Origin: Acidobacteriota bacterium
GTDB lineage: Bacteria > Acidobacteriota > Blastocatellia > Pyrinomonadales > Pyrinomonadaceae
Assembly: GCA_020199775.1 (NCBI GenBank)
Contig: JAIVJZ010000006.1
Coordinates: 124,001 to 188,000 of the forward strand
DNA: 64,000 nucleotides
Reading direction: 5' to 3'
Below the pieces are notes generated by a model that had not been told where the DNA came from, did not search any database, and was given only the letters and a program-made list of their open reading frames with translations. Both the position numbers and the translations under genes were made by a program. Of this stretch, positions 1,021 through 63,733 are shown one piece after another (position 1 is the stretch's first letter; every line of letters begins with the position of its first letter).

Positions 1021-2772
1021 TCACCTGAGGAAATCGAACAGTTTAAGTAAGTCAAGCCCGAAGCCCAGGTAAGCCTTCTTACGATCTACGGCGAGGTTGC
1101 CGCCGTAAGTAAGCTGCAAGTTGTTTCCGAAGAAAGTGGCGACCACGCCGAGACCCATTTGAACGTCAGAATCTTTGTTGAAAATTTGGTCTTGGATAAT
1201 CTGCACGTTAAAGTTTTGCAGATTTATGGACTGGTCATTGAAATCCATAAATGTAGCATTGAAGCCGAAACCCGGCTTGAGGAAAGACAAAATCTTACTG
1301 CCGGTTTTTGCTTTATCTTTATTCCGCGACTCGCCCTTGTAGGTGAAGGTGTAGTTGACGCCGGGGAATGGCGAATAGTTCACCGGGTTGATGGGATTTG
1401 CCAGAGTACCTCCGACAGGAGGGGTGGTATTAGCAGGAAGGGTGGTATTAATGGCTTGCTCGTCAACTCTGCGCACGCGCTGGCGGTTGAGCAGGAACAG
1501 TGACGGCGAAACGCCCTGCTCCCATCCTAAGTCAGTCAACTCGATGTCGTAGCTGCGCCTCCCCATAACCCGCATCTCAGCAGACTGGGTAGGTGATTCA
1601 CAGACGGCTTCGATGACGAGCTTCACCTGATCCTTAGCCCCGGCGTTCGACTGTTTCAGATTTACGGTCGCGAGCGGAGACTCCGTGCTCAGTTGCACCT
1701 GGATAGAGTCGGGGTCGGTGGTAGCCCCGCTCTGGATACGAACCGATGCTACCGGGGTACCTATGAGCGAGAGCGGTGTCGAGCCGTTTTCCTTAACGAG
1801 TTCGCCGGAGACAATGTATTTTAGTAGTCCCTTCGAAGTAGCCTGTCCCGGCACGTAGAGGCAGGCTGCCGATGGCGGTTCGATTCTCTGGATGATGATG
1901 GTGCTCTCATGATCTGATCGAAGTCTAAAGTTAACACCCTCGAGCGGCTTTAATATTTCCTCGGTGGACTTTACCACCGCATCATTGTTTCCGGCTTTCG
2001 ACACAGCCTTCTGCCTCAGATCATCTATCAGATCAGCCGCCACTTTTGCCGGTATAGTGAGAGGGTATCTATTGCCGCTGGTGGTCTCTTCAGCAATGTA
2101 TATGTACTGCTGAACCTTGAGAGATTCGAGTGGACTCAGTTCTTCGGGGGTCTGGGTGGGGGTGGCCTCATTCTCCGCGGTTTGGGGCTGAACCGTCGGT
2201 GTCACCGAGAAACGTGACGCCCTCGCCGCCGGTTGCGCCGCGCCGTTCTCCGATGCCGCGCCGACATTGCCGTTCCCGTTTCCGTTTCCATTTCCCTCAG
2301 CCGAAGCGACCGATGTGGAACCGGCGGGGGGACTGGACTGTTCCGGCGCGCTGTAGGTGGGCACGAGTCTGGGGGCGTTGCTGCTCACCAGTTTGATACG
2401 CGGGGGCAACATCTGGATGCTGAAAGTCAGTTCGAGAGCCTCTGCGTCGCGGATAGACCTGTCCGTGATTTTCACCCGGAAGCGATAAGGCTGTGCCTGA
2501 TGCGACTGGGGGACGCCTGTGATCATTCCGTCGCTATTGAGTCTCAACCCCGCCGGTAAGTTCTCGACCGCCGCCCATTCAAATGCCGCCCCCTGCACGC
2601 CGGTCTCTAATTTCAGGCGGTATTTTTGGGCTAAGATTTTATCTATGCTCTGCTGGTAAACTTCCCCCACACGGCCGGAGGTTAATTCGAACTCCGGTTC
2701 CTGAGCTAAGGACGAAGTGAAGCCGCAGACGATGAAAAGTAAGGTGGCGATCAACCGGCGCGGTGTGCTCAT
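1021..2772 (-). CDS. Secreted protein with putative Ig-like domain and NG-repeat linker
   Basis: Signal peptide MSTPRRLIATLLFIVCGFTSSLAQ; 'LPAGLRLNSDGMITGVPQ' putative-Ig motif; low-complexity GNGNGNGNGN linker. Confidence 0.6.
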   Translation of the reverse strand: MSTPRRLIATLLFIVCGFTSSLAQEPEFELTSGRVGEVYQQSIDKILAQKYRLKLETGVQGAAFEWAAVENLPAGLRLNSDGMITGVPQSHQAQPYRFRVKITDRSIRDAEALELTFSIQMLPPRIKLVSSNAPRLVPTYSAPEQSSPPAGSTSVASAEGNGNGNGNGNVGAASENGAAQPAARASRFSVTPTVQPQTAENEATPTQTPEELSPLESLKVQQYIYIAEETTSGNRYPLTIPAKVAADLIDDLRQKAVSKAGNNDAVVKSTEEILKPLEGVNFRLRSDHESTIIIQRIEPPSAACLYVPGQATSKGLLKYIVSGELVKENGSTPLSLIGTPVASVRIQSGATTDPDSIQVQLSTESPLATVNLKQSNAGAKDQVKLVIEAVCESPTQSAEMRVMGRRSYDIELTDLGWEQGVSPSLFLLNRQRVRRVDEQAINTTLPANTTPPVGGTLANPINPVNYSPFPGVNYTFTYKGESRNKDKAKTGSKILSFLKPGFGFNATFMDFNDQSINLQNFNVQIIQDQIFNKDSDVQMGLGVVATFFGNNLQLTYGGNLAVDRKKAYLGFGLDLLKLFDFLR

Positions 2773-2954
2773 GAACCCTCTTCTTGAAACAGCCTTCAGT
2801 CGCAGCGTGAAGCGTCTTCGCGACGGCTGCTTAACCTGACAATATGTTGATGAGAAAACAGAACGTCAGCAAACGTAAAGTATCAGCTAACGCTCGAAAT
2901 CATGCGGGATTGCATGATGATCTTGGCAGTGGCACGGGAAGTATACGTGTTCCT

Positions 2955-2994
2955 TTAAATCTGTCAACGGGAAGTTAAATCCGTCAACGGAAAG
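2955..2994. repeat. 20-nt direct tandem repeat, 2 copies
   Basis: ttaaatctgtcaacgggaag / ttaaatccgtcaacggaaag. Confidence 0.7.
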
Positions 2995-3050
2995 TTGCCG
3001 GGCGTTTAAGCGGTTAAGTACACGGGTGGCCGGAACCGAAGTTTATATCG

Positions 3051-4058
3051 TTAAACCGTCGTGCGGAAGCTTTGCGCGATGAGCGGGACGATGCGGCGGG
3101 GAACGGCGATGGCCTGTTTGATGTGGCGGGCGTGGGTGAAGTGGCCGGCGACGTAGAGGCCGGGAACGTTGGTTTCGTAGGTGTCGGGGTTGTAGACGGG
3201 CACTTCGGCGAGTCCGGCTTTTGCGAATTCGACTCCGGCGCGGCGCAAAAGCGTGTGGTCGGCGTCCGCGCCGATGAGGATGAAGACGGCGTCGTTCGGG
3301 AGCGTGCGAACGACGCCGTCTTCCGTTTGGAGGCGGACTTCGCGCCCGGTGATCTCTTCGAGTTGGGTGAAGAAGGCGAGGCGGAGCCGCCCCTCTTCGA
3401 GTTCGCGTTCGAGGGGCGCGCGCACCCAGTGTTTGATGGCGTTCATCTTGGGGTCGCGCTGTTCCCAGTCGGCGCGCCAGATGGCGAGCGTGGTGTGCGC
3501 GCCCTCTTCGGAGAGGAAGAGCGCGGCCTCGGCCGCGGAGTTGCCGCCGCCGACGACGAGCACGTCTTTGCGCACGTAGGGGTAAGGCTCGACGAAGCGG
3601 TGTTGAACTTTCGGCAGGTCTTCGCCTGCGACGTGCAGGCGGCGCGGGTAGGCCATCGCGCCCGTCGCCACGAGAACGCGCGCGGCACGGTATTCGGCGC
3701 GCGTCGTGCGCAGCGTAAATACGCCGGTCTCTTCGTGGCGTTCAATCGACTCCGCGCCTTCTTCGGTGTGGATGCGCAAGCCTTCGTCGAGGGCGAAGCG
3801 AACGTAGTGCGAGAGCAGTTCTTCGCGCGTCGGCTTGTCGCGACAGGGGCGCAGGGAATTTTCGCGCAACTCCAATTCGTCGGGCGTGGAGAAGACCGTG
3901 CGGCCGACGGGGTAGCGATAAATCGTGTCGGCGAGCAAGCCCTTTTCGATGACGAGATAGTTGAGTCCCTCGCGTGCCGCCGCGCCGGCGGCAGACAACC
4001 CGGCGGGGCCTGCGCCGATGATCAACAAGTCCAATTGCTCGTCACGCGCGTTCGACAT
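3051..4058 (-). CDS. ypdA: YpdA-like FAD/NAD(P)-dependent oxidoreductase (putative bacillithiol disulfide reductase)
   Basis: LLIIGAGPAGLSAA, TIYRYPVGRTVFSTPDELE, VVGGGNSAAEAAL; ATG at 4058 preferred over the ORF start at 4187. Confidence 0.75.
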   Translation of the reverse strand: MSNARDEQLDLLIIGAGPAGLSAAGAAAREGLNYLVIEKGLLADTIYRYPVGRTVFSTPDELELRENSLRPCRDKPTREELLSHYVRFALDEGLRIHTEEGAESIERHEETGVFTLRTTRAEYRAARVLVATGAMAYPRRLHVAGEDLPKVQHRFVEPYPYVRKDVLVVGGGNSAAEAALFLSEEGAHTTLAIWRADWEQRDPKMNAIKHWVRAPLERELEEGRLRLAFFTQLEEITGREVRLQTEDGVVRTLPNDAVFILIGADADHTLLRRAGVEFAKAGLAEVPVYNPDTYETNVPGLYVAGHFTHARHIKQAIAVPRRIVPLIAQSFRTTV

Positions 4059-10450: not shown

Positions 10451-10516
10451 CAGCCGTCAGCCGTCAGCCGGATCAAACACCGGCGGCCCATGGCTGGCGG
10501 CTGGCCGCTGATTGCT
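10451..10516. repeat. Heptad-periodic inverted repeat (GTCAGCC type)
   Basis: cagccgt cagccgt cagccgg ... ggctggc ggctggc cgctgat; lies immediately upstream of mutL ATG (10521). Confidence 0.75.
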
Positions 10517-10520
10517 ACTC

Positions 10521-12686
10521 ATGTCAAAGATTCGTGTTTTATCAGATCATCTCGCAAATCAGATCGCGGCGGGCGAAGTCGTTGAGCGACCGGCGTCGGT
10601 GGCGAAGGAGTTGGTCGAAAACTCCATCGACGCGGGCGCGCGCCGGATAGAGGTTGAGGTTGAGGCGGGCGGGCGCAGGCTCCTGCGCGTCTCCGACGAC
10701 GGCGACGGGATGACGCAGGACGACGCGTTGCTCGCCTTCGAGCGTCACGCCACGTCGAAGATCAGCACGGCCGACGACCTGAACAACATCAGCACGCTCG
10801 GCTTTCGCGGCGAGGCTCTGGCCTCCATCGCCTCGGTCGCGCGCGTCGAACTCGTGACGCAGACCGAAGGCGAAGCGGAGGGCACGCGCGTCGCTATCGA
10901 AGGCGGCCGCATGCGCGACGTGAAGCCCGCGGCGCGGCCGCGCGGGACGACCATCACCGTGCGCGATCTCTTCTTCAACATCCCGGCGCGGCGCAAGTTT
11001 CTCCGTTCCGAGGCGACGGAGAGTTTTCACCTGACGAGCCTCGTCACACACTACGCGCTGGCCCACCCGGAAATCGCGTTCGTCCTGACGAACAACGGGC
11101 GCGAGTCGCTGCGCGCGGCGGTCGCCGCGAATTTGCGCGAACGCGCCTATCAAATCTTCGGCGCGGAATTTCTCGACAGCCTGTTGGAAGTCGGCGGCGG
11201 GCACAATCAGGTCGCGCGCGTCTCGGGCTACGTCTCCGCGCCGCGCGAGAGGCGCACGACGCGCGACGCGCAATACCTGTTCGTCAACGGCCGCTACGTG
11301 CGCGACCGTCTGGTGAGCCGCGCGCTCGGCGAAGGTTATCGCACGGTGCTGCCGCAGGGCGTCTACCCGGCGGCGTTGTTGTTTCTCGAAGTGCCGCTCG
11401 AAGAGGTTGACGTGAACGTCCATCCGGCGAAGACCGAAGTGCGCTTCCGCCGCGCCGCCGCCGTCGCCGACGCCGTGCGCGAAGCGGTGCGCGCCGCGCT
11501 CGCCGCGGGCGGCTACGTCCGACTCACGGACGAGCAGGACGTGCGAACACCTTCCGCTCAACATGCTAACTCGCGCGACGATCTTTCGACGGGCGCGCCC
11601 GGCGAGATGGCCGCCGGTTGGAACGCGGCGGGCGGTAGTAGTGATGCCGCGCGCGAGTCGTCGAATTTGGGGGCGGTGGGCGACGACGACCGGGCGAGCG
11701 TTGGAGCGGAGCGGGGCGCGCGGGTTCAAACGCCACGGCCGCAACAGGAGAGCATCGAATTCGGCTTCACCCCGCCGCCGGACGACGAGTTGCTCTTGGC
11801 GACCGAAGAGTTTGCGGCGCGCGCATCCGGGATGCCGCCCCTGATGCCCGCCGCGCTCGATGCGATTGCGCGCAACGCCGAAGTCACCTCGCAAGAAGGA
11901 CGCGAGGAGAGCCTTGCCGGGCGGGACGCGCCGGACGCTTCTCCGGCTGCGTTGGCGGGCGAAGCGGCGACGCGACATCGAGCGCAGGATGAAAGCGCAG
12001 CGTTGACGGGTGCGACCGGCGCGGGCGGCGCAAACCCGTCGCGCACGCCGCTCCCGCCGCTCAATTCAATCGCGGGCGCGATGTACGAAGTGGAGGTCGA
12101 ATCCGTCTCCAACAACATCCGGCCGCTCTACCAACTCGAAGAAAGCTACATCATCGCGATAGACGCGGAGGGCATGTTGCTGATCGACCAGCACGCCGCG
12201 CACGAGCGTATCCTCTTCGACAAATACCGCAAACTCGAAGAGACGCGCGCGGCCGAATCCCAACAACTGCTCATGCCCGAAACCTTCGACCTCACGCCCG
12301 CGCAGGCCGCCGCCTTCGACACCGTCGCCGCCGAACTCGAAACTTACGGCTTTAGCCTCATGCGCCTGTCGGGTCGCACCGTCGCGATCAAGGCCGTGCC
12401 CGCAGACCTGCCCGCGAGCGAGGCGCGCAACATGCTCGCCGAAATTTTGGAGACGGTTGATGCCGAACGGCGCGGCGCGGCGCGCGAGACTTTGCGCGAG
12501 CGCGTCGCCGCCTCGCTCGCCTGTCACGCCGCGATTAAGGTCAACATGCCGCTCGCGCCGGAGAAGATGCGCTGGCTCATAGACCGCCTGCTCACCACCT
12601 CTTCGCCCACCACTTGCCCCCACGGACGCCCGGCCATCCTGCGCCTGACGACGCGCGACATCGAGCGCGGTTTCCACCGCCCTTAA
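10521..12686 (+). CDS. mutL: DNA mismatch repair endonuclease MutL
   Basis: MSKIRVLSDHLANQIAAGEVVERPASVAKELVENSIDAGA..., GFRGEALASI; C-terminal dimerisation domain. Confidence 0.97.
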   Translation: MSKIRVLSDHLANQIAAGEVVERPASVAKELVENSIDAGARRIEVEVEAGGRRLLRVSDDGDGMTQDDALLAFERHATSKISTADDLNNISTLGFRGEALASIASVARVELVTQTEGEAEGTRVAIEGGRMRDVKPAARPRGTTITVRDLFFNIPARRKFLRSEATESFHLTSLVTHYALAHPEIAFVLTNNGRESLRAAVAANLRERAYQIFGAEFLDSLLEVGGGHNQVARVSGYVSAPRERRTTRDAQYLFVNGRYVRDRLVSRALGEGYRTVLPQGVYPAALLFLEVPLEEVDVNVHPAKTEVRFRRAAAVADAVREAVRAALAAGGYVRLTDEQDVRTPSAQHANSRDDLSTGAPGEMAAGWNAAGGSSDAARESSNLGAVGDDDRASVGAERGARVQTPRPQQESIEFGFTPPPDDELLLATEEFAARASGMPPLMPAALDAIARNAEVTSQEGREESLAGRDAPDASPAALAGEAATRHRAQDESAALTGATGAGGANPSRTPLPPLNSIAGAMYEVEVESVSNNIRPLYQLEESYIIAIDAEGMLLIDQHAAHERILFDKYRKLEETRAAESQQLLMPETFDLTPAQAAAFDTVAAELETYGFSLMRLSGRTVAIKAVPADLPASEARNMLAEILETVDAERRGAARETLRERVAASLACHAAIKVNMPLAPEKMRWLIDRLLTTSSPTTCPHGRPAILRLTTRDIERGFHRP

Positions 12687-12693
12687 GAAAGCA

Positions 12694-12774
12694 AACGATG
12701 AAGTAGGAACGCGGAACGATGAAGTAAAGACAACTTGCTTTTACTTCATCGTTCCGCGTTCCTACTTCATCGTT
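12694..12774. repeat. Heptad-periodic inverted repeat (ACGATGA type), perfect 35-bp arms
   Basis: aacgatgaagtaggaacgcggaacgatgaagtaaa (12694-12728) and its exact reverse complement (12740-12774), 11-nt spacer; between convergent mutL and HAD gene. Confidence 0.95.
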
Positions 12775-12812: not shown

Positions 12813-13574
12813 TCACAGGGCGTCGAAAGTTTCGAGGACGAGTTCCGTGTCGGACAGGTCTGGGAGTAGGGCGTCGGGGTTGTGCGCGGCGAGCGTCGCG
12901 TGGCTGTCGAAACGCCCGGTGCAGACGGCGACCGAGCGCGCGCCGAAATGTTTGGCGCAGGCGATGTCGTTCGGCGTGTCGCCGATGACGATGAATTGCG
13001 CGGGGCGCAAAGTCTGTCCGAGTCGGGCGTTGACGCGCGCGGCGGCGATGGCGGGCAGGTCGCGCCGGTCGTGCGAGTCGTCGCCGAATGCGCCGCGGAG
13101 TTGTTGGAAGAAATCGGAGAGCCCGACGAGGCGCAACTTCAAATGCGCGGCGGGTTCGAGGTTGCCCGTCAGGAGCGTCGAGCGGTAGCGCGGGCGCTCC
13201 CGGACGCGCTCCAGAATCTCACGCGCGCCGGGGAGCAGCCGGAAGAGCGGGCTGTCCGCGCTCGCCGTGGCCGCGACGCGCTCCATCTCGATCATAAACC
13301 GCGTGCGAATCTCTTCGACGCGCTCGCGGACGTGCTCGTCGCTGATGCCGTGTTCGCGGAGGGCTTCGCCCATGATCTGCAAGTCGGTCATGCCCGACAC
13401 GCGCATCTCGTGGATGCGCCCCGCCGTGCCGAAGATGCTCTCCAGCGCGGGGACGACGTAATCCTTGAACGCGCCGGGGCGCACCGAGCGCAAAAGCGTC
13501 CCGTCGATGTCCCACAGCAGCACGCGCAAATCTTCCGGCGCGACGGTTGAGCGTTTCTCAGTGTGTCGGGTCAT
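12813..13574 (-). CDS. HAD family hydrolase (phosphoglycolate phosphatase-like)
   Basis: LLWDIDGTLLRS, LLTGNLE, FIVIGDTPNDIACAKHFGARSVAV. Confidence 0.88.
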   Translation of the reverse strand: MTRHTEKRSTVAPEDLRVLLWDIDGTLLRSVRPGAFKDYVVPALESIFGTAGRIHEMRVSGMTDLQIMGEALREHGISDEHVRERVEEIRTRFMIEMERVAATASADSPLFRLLPGAREILERVRERPRYRSTLLTGNLEPAAHLKLRLVGLSDFFQQLRGAFGDDSHDRRDLPAIAAARVNARLGQTLRPAQFIVIGDTPNDIACAKHFGARSVAVCTGRFDSHATLAAHNPDALLPDLSDTELVLETFDAL

Positions 13575-21550: not shown

Positions 21551-21626
21551 GTTTCAGGTTTCAAGTTTCAAGTTTCAAGTCTGAAAGGTCTTCGAGTTTT
21601 AACCTGAAACTTGAAACTTGAAACCT
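21551..21626. repeat. Heptad-periodic inverted repeat (GTTTCAA type)
   Basis: gtttcag gtttcaa gtttcaa gtttcaa gt ... acctgaaacttgaaacttgaaacct. Confidence 0.85.
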
Positions 21627-26790: not shown

Positions 26791-26857
26791 GACGGGTGAC
26801 GGGTGACGAGATTGACTTCGTCTTGATCCTGTCGCCCGTCACCTGTCACCCGTCACT
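26791..26857. repeat. Heptad-periodic inverted repeat (GACGGGT type)
   Basis: gacgggt gacgggt gacgag ... cgcccgtcacctgtcacccgtcact; just upstream of ATG 26874. Confidence 0.8.
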
Positions 26858-30668: not shown

Positions 30669-30675
30669 AAATTAA

Positions 30676-30754
30676 ATGATGAAGGAGGAACGCGGAACGT
30701 TGAAGTTAAGAGCAGTTGTCTTTACATTCATCGTTCATCGTTCCTACTTCATAC
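30676..30754. repeat. Heptad-periodic inverted repeat (ACGATGA type), inverted orientation
   Basis: atgatgaaggaggaacgcggaacgttgaagtta...tttacattcatcgttcatcgttcctacttcatac; in the atpD-atpC spacer. Confidence 0.8.
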
Positions 30755-38705: not shown

Positions 38706-38903
38706 AGTCCCGTCAGGGACGGTTGATAATAGCCCGGCACTTTAGTGCCGGGAATAAGTTGAGATAATGAATCCGAGTCCCGTAGGGACGATTGAAAATT
38801 GCATTGGAGAGATTCAACCGTCCCTACGGGACTCTATAAAATTGATGCGTGTTACCCCCGGCGATAAATCGCCGGGCTATTATCAACCGTCCCTGACGGG
38901 ACT
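38706..38903. repeat. Nested palindromic element: outer perfect 33-bp inverted repeat, inner ~21-bp inverted repeat
   Basis: agtcccgtcagggacggttgataatagcccggc (38706-38738) vs exact RC (38871-38903); inner gagtcccgtagggacgattga (38775-38795) vs RC (38814-38834), 1 mismatch. Confidence 0.95.
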
Positions 38904-42820: not shown

Positions 42821-43609
42821 ATGAGCGAAACCAACTCTCCCACGACCCTTCCGGCGGGCGCGGCGCACGAAGCGAACGCCATGACCACGCCGCAAACGCT
42901 CGGCAACATCTTCTTCGAGCCGGGGCCCACTTTCGAGGCGTTGCGTGAAAGGCCGCGCTTCCTCGTCGCCGCCCTCATCATGCTCGTCGCGTTCATGGCT
43001 TTCTACCTCGCTTACATCCAGTGGGTCGGGTACGAAAACCTCATCAACGCCGAACTCGAAACCAGATCGCAGGTCACGGAGATGAGCGACGAGCGGAAGG
43101 CCGCCGGTCGTGACATTCAGTTGAAGCCTTTCGTGAAGGCGATCCGTTACAGCGTGCCCGTGACCGGCATCGCGATTTTGCTCGCGGCCGGTGCGGGGAT
43201 TTACCTGCTCGGCGCGATGTTGATGGGCAAGGGGATGAGCTACAAGCAGGCGTTGTCCGTCTGGACTTACTCGTCGCTGCCGCCGCTCGTGCTTTTGATG
43301 ACGGCGAACCTGATACTGCTTTTGGTGAGAACCCCGACGCAGGATTCGGAGATCGCGCGCGGGTTGAACGGCTTAGTCCAGGCCAATCCGGGCATCATGG
43401 TGGACGCGGCGGCGCACCCCGTGCTCGCCACCGCGCTCGGCGCGCTCGACCTGTTCGCCCTCTACGGTCTGTTCCTCGCCGCGCTCGGCATGCGTAAAGT
43501 GGCGCGCCTCTCGTCCGGCTCGGCCTGGGCTGTCGTGCTCGGCTTATGGCTGCTCGGCGTCATCGGCCGCATCATCATCGCGGCGACGACGGGCACGCCG
43601 ATGGCGTAA
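42821..43609 (+). CDS. Yip1-family membrane protein
   Basis: Multi-TM; NIFFEPGPTFEALRERPRFLVAALIM. Confidence 0.75.
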   Translation: MSETNSPTTLPAGAAHEANAMTTPQTLGNIFFEPGPTFEALRERPRFLVAALIMLVAFMAFYLAYIQWVGYENLINAELETRSQVTEMSDERKAAGRDIQLKPFVKAIRYSVPVTGIAILLAAGAGIYLLGAMLMGKGMSYKQALSVWTYSSLPPLVLLMTANLILLLVRTPTQDSEIARGLNGLVQANPGIMVDAAAHPVLATALGALDLFALYGLFLAALGMRKVARLSSGSAWAVVLGLWLLGVIGRIIIAATTGTPMA

Positions 43610-43697
43610 AAGTCGCATCCGAAGAACGAGGGCGGCGCGAGGGGAGAAGTGTGATAACTCCTCCCCCGCGCCGCCCTCGTTCTTCGGATGCGACTTT
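43609..43697. terminator. Bidirectional terminator-like palindrome, perfect 31-bp arms
   Basis: AAAGTCGCATCCGAAGAACGAGGGCGGCGCG and exact RC; abuts both convergent stop codons. Confidence 0.8.
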
Positions 43698-44965: not shown

Positions 44966-45032
44966 AGCCATCAGCCATCAGCCGTCAGCTTACAGTTTTT
45001 AGCTGAAAGCTGACGGCTGATGGCTGATGGCT
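44966..45032. repeat. Heptad-periodic inverted repeat (GTCAGCC type), perfect 26-bp arms
   Basis: agccatcagccatcagccgtcagctt (44966-44991) and exact RC (45007-45032). Confidence 0.92.
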
Positions 45033-46400: not shown

Positions 46401-46456
46401 AAAAGTCGGAAGGGGAAGGCGAGAGTTAAAACACGCGCCTTCCCCTTCCGACTTTT
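46401..46456. terminator. Terminator-like hairpin
   Basis: AAAAGTCGGAAGGGGAAGGCG / CGCCTTCCCCTTCCGACTTTT perfect 21 bp. Confidence 0.65.
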
Positions 46457-52220: not shown

Positions 52221-52302
52221 CGTAACGTGAATCGTGAATCGTAAATAGATTAAACTCCGCCTTGGTTTTTCTATTCACGATTCACGATTCACGGATTTAC
52301 GG
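52221..52302. repeat. Heptad-periodic inverted repeat (CGTGAAT type)
   Basis: cgtaacgtgaatcgtgaatcgtaaatag ... ctattcacgattcacgattcacggatttacgg. Confidence 0.85.
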
Positions 52303-55746: not shown

Positions 55747-57525
55747 ATGACGAAGACTTGCCCCAGTTGCGATGTTCTGGCTCCGCACGACGCGCGTTAC
55801 TGCCGCCATTGCGGCGCGCCGCTTCAACGCCTCGGCGCACCCGGAGGAAACACGGGCGCGAACATCTCGCCCATCGCCACCACCGTCCCTCTGTCCGGCA
55901 ACAACCCGACGGACGAGATCGTCGCCAACCCTGCGCAGCAAGCCGCTGCCTCCCACACCTCGGAAGTCACGCCCGCAGAGATGTACGACCTGTGGAGGCG
56001 CGACACGCCGGCGGGAAAAGTTCGGGACGCGGCTGAAGCAGGGAGGGCGAACGACGGGCAGCAGAGCGCGTCCGCACGAGACGCGCGCGAGGGGCATAAC
56101 TTCTCGCACACGCACCAGACCGGAAATCTTCAAACTAACTCGCCGCACGATTCCGCTCCTGACGACTACGACCCCGAACAGACTCAGATCACGATCCCCG
56201 TGCGGCCGTTCACTTCGCGGAACTTACCGGCGGACGCCGCCGCCGCCGCCGCTGCCGTCGCCGCGCGCGCCAACGGCAAGCCGCAATTCAACCACGCGCC
56301 GCAACAGGTCACGCTGTCTCCCACGGGCTCGCTGCTACCGCTGGCGGCGTCGCCCGCCTCGACAGCGGCGGCCGACACGCCTTCTCCGGCGCAGCCGAAC
56401 GAGCGGCGCGCGTTTCGCGTGTGGCTGGGAATGGGGGTTTTGTCCGTCGTCGTTATTTGTTGCGTGGTCGCCGCCATCGTCTGGCTGGGCGTGCGCGGGT
56501 TCCGGCGCACATCGGAAACTCCGTCGCCCGCCGTCGCCACGGGGGGCGAGGCGTCCGCGCCCCTCGTGGACGATCCGAAGCAACTGGCAAACGCGAAGTT
56601 GGCCGAGGCCGCCACGCTCATCGCTTCCGGCAACGCGGCGGAGGCACAGGCGCGCCTGCGCGAGGCGGCCGTGCTCGACCCGTCCAACGCCGAACCGCAT
56701 CACCGGCTCGCGCGCCTGCTGCTCGCGGACGGTTCGCGGCGCGAGGCCATCGAGGAGTTGCGCGTCGTCACGCGCCTCACGCCCGCGAACACGGAGGCGT
56801 GGCGCGCGCTGGCCTCGGCGCAGTTCGCCGAAGGACTTTACCGCGACGCTCTGGAATCCTATCGCGGACTCGGCGAAGCTTCGCCCGCCGCGCTCGCGCG
56901 CGACTCCGTACAATTAGCCTACGCCGACACGCTGCGCCTCGCCGGTCGCACGATGGAGGCGCGCGCGATTTATCGCCGCCTTGCCGAAACGTCTTCCGAC
57001 GCGCAGGTCGCCGCCGCGAGCAAGCGACAACTCGGACAGCCCACGCCGTCGCCCACGGGCGAAGGCGCGGCCGAAGCCGGCAACGCCGACGCTCAAATTG
57101 CCGACGCGACGCGCGCCGCCACGGCAGGAGGGTCGCCCGTGACGCCGCGCAACGGCGACGCGAACCGGCAGCCGGACGCGCCCGCGGCGACGCCCGCGCC
57201 CCACCCCACGGCCGCGCCGTCGAGAGCGTCTTCCGGTTCGCCCTCGGATCAATACCAGCGCGGCGTCGCGTTGTGGACGACGAACCGTGGGGCGGCCGTC
57301 GCGGAGTTTCGCGCCGCGGCCGAGCGCGGCAACTCGGACGCCAGTTATTATCTCGGCCTGAGCATCGCCGAAGGGCGCGACCCGCGCTCGCTGAGGCGCG
57401 CCGAACTCGTCGCCGCGCTCGTCCATTTCGGCCGCGCGCGCCGCGGCAAATTCCGCGGGCAATCCGTCACCTACGAAGAACAACTCGGCAGGGAACTCGA
57501 CCGGAGAAGAAACGATGAACGATGA
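55747..57525 (+). CDS. Zinc-ribbon, TM and TPR/Sel1-like repeat protein
   Basis: CPSCDVLAPHDARYCRHCGAPL; TM; ASGNAAEAQARLREAAVLDPSNAEPHHRLARLLL; C-terminal Sel1-like. Confidence 0.8.
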   Translation: MTKTCPSCDVLAPHDARYCRHCGAPLQRLGAPGGNTGANISPIATTVPLSGNNPTDEIVANPAQQAAASHTSEVTPAEMYDLWRRDTPAGKVRDAAEAGRANDGQQSASARDAREGHNFSHTHQTGNLQTNSPHDSAPDDYDPEQTQITIPVRPFTSRNLPADAAAAAAAVAARANGKPQFNHAPQQVTLSPTGSLLPLAASPASTAAADTPSPAQPNERRAFRVWLGMGVLSVVVICCVVAAIVWLGVRGFRRTSETPSPAVATGGEASAPLVDDPKQLANAKLAEAATLIASGNAAEAQARLREAAVLDPSNAEPHHRLARLLLADGSRREAIEELRVVTRLTPANTEAWRALASAQFAEGLYRDALESYRGLGEASPAALARDSVQLAYADTLRLAGRTMEARAIYRRLAETSSDAQVAAASKRQLGQPTPSPTGEGAAEAGNADAQIADATRAATAGGSPVTPRNGDANRQPDAPAATPAPHPTAAPSRASSGSPSDQYQRGVALWTTNRGAAVAEFRAAAERGNSDASYYLGLSIAEGRDPRSLRRAELVAALVHFGRARRGKFRGQSVTYEEQLGRELDRRRNDER

Positions 57526-57630
57526 ACGCGGAACGCTGAACTAAAAGACAAAAGCATCCTGATCGTTTATCATTCCGCATTCATCGTTCCGCGTTCATCG
57601 TTCCGCGTTCATCGTTCCGCGTTCATCGTT
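57511..57630. repeat. Heptad-periodic inverted repeat (ACGATGA type) with extended right arm
   Basis: aacgatgaacgatgaacgcggaacgctgaacta ... tttatcattccgcattcatcgttccgcgttcatcgttccgcgttcatcgttccgcgttcatcgtt. Confidence 0.9.
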
Positions 57631-57637
57631 TAAAATC

Positions 57638-61318: not shown

Positions 61319-61401
61319 AGTTTCAAGTTTCAGGTTTCAAGTTTCAAGTTTGAATGTTGTTCGGTCTTTAACTTGAAACCTGAAACTTGAAACCTGAAAC
61401 T
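61319..61401. repeat. Heptad-periodic inverted repeat (GTTTCAA type)
   Basis: agtttcaagtttcaggtttcaagtttcaagtttgaa ... acttgaaacctgaaacttgaaacctgaaact. Confidence 0.85.
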
Positions 61402-63649: not shown

Positions 63650-63733
63650 AAACGATGAAGGAGGAACGCGGAACGATGAACTAAAGACAAACTGCTTTCA
63701 CTTCATCGTTCATCGTTCCTACTTCATTGGTTC
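63650..63733. repeat. Heptad-periodic inverted repeat (ACGATGA type)
   Basis: aacgatgaaggaggaacgcggaacgatgaactaaag...tttcacttcatcgttcatcgttcctacttcattggtt. Confidence 0.88.

Follow-up and report, generated by a model that had tools for sequence, protein, structure and literature searches.

A heptamer palindrome downstream of mutL and the exchange of hairpin families at conserved intergenic sites in a genus of Pyrinomonadaceae

Results

An exact palindrome lies between convergent genes

The window analyzed here is a stretch of 64,000 nucleotides (G000:C25:124001-188000) from a 5.9-Mb, 77-contig Acidobacteriota (Pyrinomonadaceae) MAG, hereafter G000. An exact palindrome at 12694-12774 is situated between mutL upstream and an opposing gene for a HAD-type hydrolase (Table 1), beginning 8 nt beyond the mutL stop codon. 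As the preliminary description had reported, the flanking genes are convergent and the 35-bp arms, separated by an 11-bp spacer, are reverse-complementary throughout. The nearest named relative of this MutL is from Pyrinomonadaceae isolate BP_17 (83% identity). Two features had been missed in that description. Each arm is a series of 7-bp words (AACGATG AAGTAGG AACGCGG AACGATG AAGTAAA), and the spacer is itself near-palindromic, with a one-base bulge that sets its orientation. The predicted RNA fold of the palindrome reaches -65.9 kcal/mol (z -14).

An Rfam search of the window returned no curated family at the palindrome, and its sole match was Acido-Lenti-1, elsewhere. There, at 38706-38903, two inverted matches to the Acido-Lenti-1 RNA (RF01687) surround a non-heptad palindrome, GAGTCCCGTAGGGACGATTGAA (38775-38834), an arm of which is found again at C40:656986. 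The Acido-Lenti-1 RNA may belong to a palindromic repeat. The window also holds a 35-nt inverted repeat at 43609-43697 that is 97% complementary, has a 19-nt loop and is without 7-bp periodicity. A second, non-heptad hairpin family, TGTAGGGGCAGGGCTTGTCCCTGCCCGC, occurs in G000 at C40:140274, 158292, 235826, and 671911 (L148, L152, L174).

Table 1. Genes and heptamer hairpins in the window, with the hairpin families found at the corresponding sites of other genomes.
Feature	Position	Strand	Evidence or comparison
mutL, upstream neighbor	10512..12686	+	NCBIfam TIGR00585, E=3.6e-166
Left arm of ACGATGA-family palindrome, five heptamers	12694..12728	+	Exact reverse complement of right arm; copy alignment
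Spacer GACAACTTGCT	12729..12739	.	Apex conserved across ACGATGA family; one-base bulge
Right arm of ACGATGA-family palindrome	12740..12774	-	Exact reverse complement of left arm
HAD-type hydrolase (phosphoglycolate-phosphatase-like), convergent neighbor	12813..13574	-	
GTTTCAR-family hairpin	21556..21626	+	GTGACRR in G001 and G002
GTGACRR-family hairpin	26791..26854	+	
Imperfect ACGATGA-family hairpin between atpD and atpC	30675..30752	-	Other heptamer families in other genomes
CAGCCRT-family hairpin	44966..45032	+	GTGACRR in G002
Degenerate GGGGAAR-like hairpin	46401..46456	+	GGGGAAR in G002
CGTGAAT-family hairpin	52226..52293	+	GGTCAAT in G002
ACGATGA-family inverted arrays, right arm extended	57511..57631	+	GTGACRR in G002
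GTTTCAR-family hairpin	61320..61393	+	GGGGAAR in G002
ACGATGA-family copy after Dpp7-like peptidase gene	63651..63732	+	

The palindrome belongs to a dispersed family of hairpins

A first search of G000 for copies of the palindrome gave 177 candidates, 40 of which were scored, and the ACGATGA family, with a unit of ~81 bp, occupies at least 40 non-redundant places in this genome. The 25 copies that we extracted measure 79-83 bp and have the common word order AACGATG-AAGTAGG-AACGCGG/AACGATG-AACGATG-AAGTAAA/AACTGAA. Their left flanks are purine-rich and their right flanks pyrimidine-rich. By inspection, the words are without G-tracts. The spacers that had been quoted for the copies at 63650 and 30676 were correct, and the claim of a shared spacer in two orientations extended to the larger set, where AAAGACAASTTGCTTT or its reverse complement was present (12 vs 10 copies, with 3 unassigned). 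Spacer likeness thus persisted with more copies aligned.

The two arms of a copy differed at 1.16 of 28 positions, compared with 2.78 between copies (re-pairing p<0.001). Changes were paired on both sides at 9 of 36 pairs, and this covariation was reached in none of 500 shuffles and exceeded all slides; since the copies are related, we regard it as support rather than proof. Words 2-5 occurred in 19 combinations among the 25 copies, and therefore variant words have been reassorted among copies. In the ACGATGA-family hairpin of G012:C104 (L245), both arms have AACGACG in place of every AACGATG word, as though a single change had spread across the unit.

Among 297 genomes sampled across the phylum, the ACGATGA family was present only in G000 and in G037, which belongs to another family of Blastocatellia. 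The plasmid and phage collections that we searched contained no match to it.

Many heptamer families share one architecture

Hairpins with an arm score of at least 18 numbered 137 in 864 kb of G000 sequence, 127 of them in the 800-kb part, and there were none in an 800-kb Markov-3 control. Arm self-identity was 0.66 at a lag of 7 and 0.65 at a lag of 14, whereas the remaining lags gave 0.20-0.32. The architecture of the ACGATGA family is common to nine or more additional heptamer families (GTTTCAR, CGTGAAT, GGGATGA, GGGGAAR, CAGCCRT, AGTGAGC, GTGACRR, AGAGGTY, and GCGGAWT), and a few octamer families are also present. These families were defined by eye from the same data, after seeing them, and some are only two bases per word apart (GTTTCAR/GTGACRR, CAGCCRT/GTCMGTN).

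Across the families scanned, every one of the 205 two-armed arrays had inward arm polarity. The preliminary description had proposed dispersal as discrete units, and the two-way spacer, fixed length, paired arm changes, and strict arm polarity support this. Unit dispersal is favored over independent hairpin formation because spacer likeness survives, length is confined to 79-83 bp, and polarity is uniformly inward.

On contig C40 of G000, 122 of 125 hairpins were intergenic. In tandem gaps they started a median of 4 nt past the upstream stop (interquartile range -2 to 11), with genes called by a simple dicodon model and start positions approximate. Divergent gaps contained about half as many hairpins per gap.

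Hairpin sites are conserved between congeners

The congeners G001 and G002 are collinear with the window at ~86-87% nucleotide identity. Nearly every hairpin in the window was matched by a hairpin in G001 and G002, of another family. In 187 syntenic gaps, G002 was occupied at 41 of the 47 gaps occupied in G000 and at 11 of the 140 vacant ones (OR 80, p=1e-24). A family-independent detector gave 43/51 versus 14/130 (OR 44.5, p=2e-21), although it missed families, such that some sites scored as vacant were in fact occupied. Hairpin positions also agreed, with a mean offset of 10.6 bp versus 70.6 bp at random (p<5e-5) in the 14 gaps with 100 bp or more outside the hairpin, one or two of which hold ordinary non-heptad hairpins. 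Alignment of the non-coding flanks extended to the boundary of the hairpin, as at C40:452094, 453133, and 425615, the last of these hairpins sitting between two apparent tRNA genes as judged by eye. The main comparison used assemblies that are 83-92% complete, and the in-depth comparison was within one genus.

We found no clean empty site for the palindrome at 12694. Strict synteny of the copies had been set against dispersal; the sites were indeed syntenic with the congeners, but the sequences standing in them were mostly of other families.

Two further observations concern particular sites. Hairpins at identical coordinates in G003:C334 and G027:C246, two different assemblies, suggest a cross-binned contig. 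At C40:450694-452094 in G000 and G002:C72:50285-51712, a gene has hairpins on both sides, AGAGGTY in G000 and GTGACRR in G002, and its start looks, by eye, like that of an SbcD/Mre11-type nuclease. Nucleases of this type cut DNA hairpins.

Whole hairpins are exchanged at shared sites

Only 9 of the 41 sites shared by G000 and G002 had the same primary family; 2 more shared CGTGAAT nested in GTGACRR, and ~30 shared none. Between G001 and G002 (92.8% identity) the family was the same at 5/5 scored sites. At switched orthologous sites, the apexes were no more alike than in shuffled pairs (p=0.62), while at same-family sites they were more alike than shuffled pairs (p=0.008, n=5). This implies that the whole hairpin was exchanged and not just its words. 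At switched sites, the family in G000 still predicted that in G002 (p=0.003), for example CAGCCRT with GTCMGTN. Given this dependence, some of the families may be diverged versions of one.

The gap between atpD and atpC extended the comparison across the class. Of the 27 genomes in which this gap was readable, 20 showed significant 7-bp periodicity, most of them with their own heptamer; gaps without periodicity included those of G019, G023, G044, G004, G011, and G022.

Concentric hairpins of the form GTGACRR+ CGTGAAT+ CGTGAAT- GTGACRR- were recurrent in G002 and occurred once in G000. At C40:401887, G000 and G002 have the outer ACGATGA arms in common, which enclose an octamer hairpin in G000 and one of GGAGACA type in G002. 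Such nesting, with a shared exterior and a different interior, indicates that a hairpin can be inserted within an existing one. Beside new hairpins, remnants of the previous family were not clearly enriched (3 of 32 switched sites, p=0.06), and this rarity weakens a model of insertion followed by decay.

No tested enzyme tracks the family

A transposase of the RAYT/TnpA_REP type had been suggested as the mobilizing enzyme. G000 contains two Y1_Tnp matches, both with in-frame stops, and none was detected in G001, G002, G012, G013, or G036, all of which are incomplete MAGs carrying the ACGATGA family. Among genomes within the family, Y1_Tnp was lower in those rich in ACGATGA hairpins (p=0.003). 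There was no excess of target duplication at k=1-9 among the 25 copies. The frequent lack of any Y1 transposase in family-rich relatives and the lack of target duplication speak against the suggested origin. At 1438-3141, locus L031 has an IS200-like TnpA that is truncated and interrupted by an in-frame stop, adjoining IS5-like transposase fragments.

Other candidates were rejected as well. The reverse transcriptase domain RVT_1 had no match in G000, G001, G002, G003, G012, G013, G014, or G027. Transposases of the IS110 type are known to target REPs; there are 8 in G000 and none in G001, G002, G027, or G036, without co-occurrence with the ACGATGA family. A search through 1.6 Mb for an autonomous element flanked by hairpins of one family revealed, by eye, only ordinary genes. 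Hence, none of the enzymes tested across genomes (Y1, RVT_1, and IS110) tracks the family, and no mobilizing enzyme was found.

Discussion

Our results demonstrate that these units disperse, that arms are matched within copies, that slots are conserved, and that in most slots whole hairpins have been exchanged with the flanks undisturbed. STRR heptamer repeats of heterocystous cyanobacteria and TAACTGA repeats are intergenic tandem heptamers, several per genome and scattered across phyla, and are described as direct arrays. Inverted symmetry characterizes MITEs and other small palindromic repeats (ERIC, Correia, and RUP), which are short, dispersed, and non-coding. The hairpins described here differ from the latter group in that we found no target-site duplication and recognized no parent transposon in 1.6 Mb, and the entire unit is palindromic. 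They resemble heptameric SSRs and STRRs in their tandem 7-bp words (lag-7 self-identity 0.66) and intergenic placement (122/125). Most sets of TAACTGA repeats are upstream of start codons (PMC4679880). Unlike STRRs and TAACTGA repeats, the units here are inverted and follow stop codons.

The nearest known kind is the heptameric SSRs of Xanthomonas and cyanobacteria, and the best match is the work on GGGAATC repeats of Xanthomonas and GGGGA(C/T)T repeats of Nostoc/Anabaena (PMC4692102). Those heptamers are intergenic near upstream gene ends, form convergent inverted pairs, are fewer between divergent genes, and show 83% site conservation (PMC4692102). Inverted pairs are likewise convergent here (205:0), and position is conserved in the congener G002 (OR 80). 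However, shared sites hold the same family in Xanthomonas, whereas here only 9/41 have the same primary family. Each Xanthomonas or Nostoc genome studied has one G-rich, quadruplex-forming family with many single arrays (PMC4692102), in contrast to the ~13 families here, whose two arms in most cases form a single hairpin. The novelty lies in the large number of families that one genome holds as paired hairpins, with exchange at fixed sites. We found no earlier description of exchanged heptamer hairpins in the literature searched, which was mostly outside subscription journals.

Like REPs and REPINs (PMC3116915, PMC3733652), the units are extragenic inverted doublets that form a hairpin, occur in many copies, show compensatory changes, and lie near gene ends. 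Mobilization of REP doublets in trans by RAYT or another Y1 HUH transposase would explain the inverted-arm doublets, which match the published description of REPINs (PMC3116915), and GTAG is present in the common second heptamer. Membership nevertheless fails on tag and transposase. No GTAG or CGTC end tag is invariant, the ACGATGA ends being AACGATG...CATCGTT; the GTAG is internal to the arm, and several copies have another word in its place (AAGGAGG, AACGCGG). Moreover, REPINs would not lead one to expect the 7-bp internal periodicity, the exchange of families at conserved sites, five family-rich genomes without Y1_Tnp (with MAG incompleteness as a caveat), its lower number in rich genomes, or the in-frame stops in the G000 matches. 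We therefore regard this origin as very improbable.

Amplified simple intrinsic bidirectional terminators would account for the convergent and 3' positions and for T-rich downstream flanks (outside divergent gaps, 3.6-4.2 T per 10 nt, against an expectation of 1.8). Yet a clear T-run (at least 5 in 10) follows only 31-44% of hairpins outside divergent gaps, so termination alone is insufficient, above all inside the atp operon. Many hairpins occur within probable operons, where a start codon follows after 10-40 nt, a terminator scan gave no consensus match at 12694, and both the heptamers and the exchange of families are left unexplained, making this account unlikely. Already disfavored, and to us less probable still, is an origin in situ, in which slippage creates heptamer arrays, fold-back copying turns them into palindromes, and each slot drifts independently. 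In many bacteria the most frequent long SSRs are heptamers, for which polymerase slippage has been proposed (Mrazek 2007, cited in PMC4679880), and both within-copy arm matching and the dependence between families at switched sites fit such drift. On the other hand, the same 81-bp unit, word order, and apex recur at 25 extracted sites, polarity is invariant, and apexes are not conserved at switched sites.

A more serious, though still doubtful, competitor is that hairpins of every family are acquired and lost independently, and that lineages coincide by constraint because only the short segment following a stop codon can accommodate them. This is consistent with the proximity of hairpins to stop codons, their depletion in divergent gaps, and the nested hairpins, which confirm that insertion does happen. 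Some genomes also lack a hairpin between atpD and atpC (G019 and G023, with gaps shorter than 40 bp, and G044). Nevertheless, G000 and G002 have a common hairpin position even in gaps of 200-480 bp, and few gaps occupied in G000 are vacant in G002 (6/47) despite ~75% family turnover.

We give roughly equal weight to belief and doubt in the explanation that we prefer, namely long-lived hairpin slots at 3' ends, probably kept for an mRNA function and refilled by whole-hairpin replacement. In this reading, the palindrome at 12694-12774, a copy of the non-coding, ~81-bp heptamer hairpin repeat of the ACGATGA family, resides in such a slot immediately 3' of mutL. If donors of replacement hairpins were random, the prediction of the G002 family from that of G000 at switched sites would be left unexplained. 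A slot may be retained because a hairpin in the RNA immediately past the stop codon would be advantageous, its predicted role being to shield upstream mRNA from 3' decay or to tune gene-to-gene expression in operons such as that of atpD-atpC. If so, any strong hairpin would do. A new hairpin could enter by ectopic copying into the resident hairpin, with the old arms subsequently lost. Candidate routes are insertion targeted to a loop or cruciform and template switching at a fork stalled by a hairpin. Correction of the palindrome by fold-back templating might keep arms matched within copies. More tentatively, hairpins may home to hairpins, copying into residents without a dedicated transposase, such that successive families sweep a class-wide map of fixed 3'-end slots.

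A clade of soil bacteria with many families in a single genome, fixed sites, and rapid exchange separates the function of a site from its sequence. Why bacteria favor heptamers as a long repeat unit and what role heptamers have are both questions testable in Pyrinomonadaceae. These hairpins also carry a warning: intergenic synteny can persist in structure without sequence homology, and alignment-based searches miss such cases.
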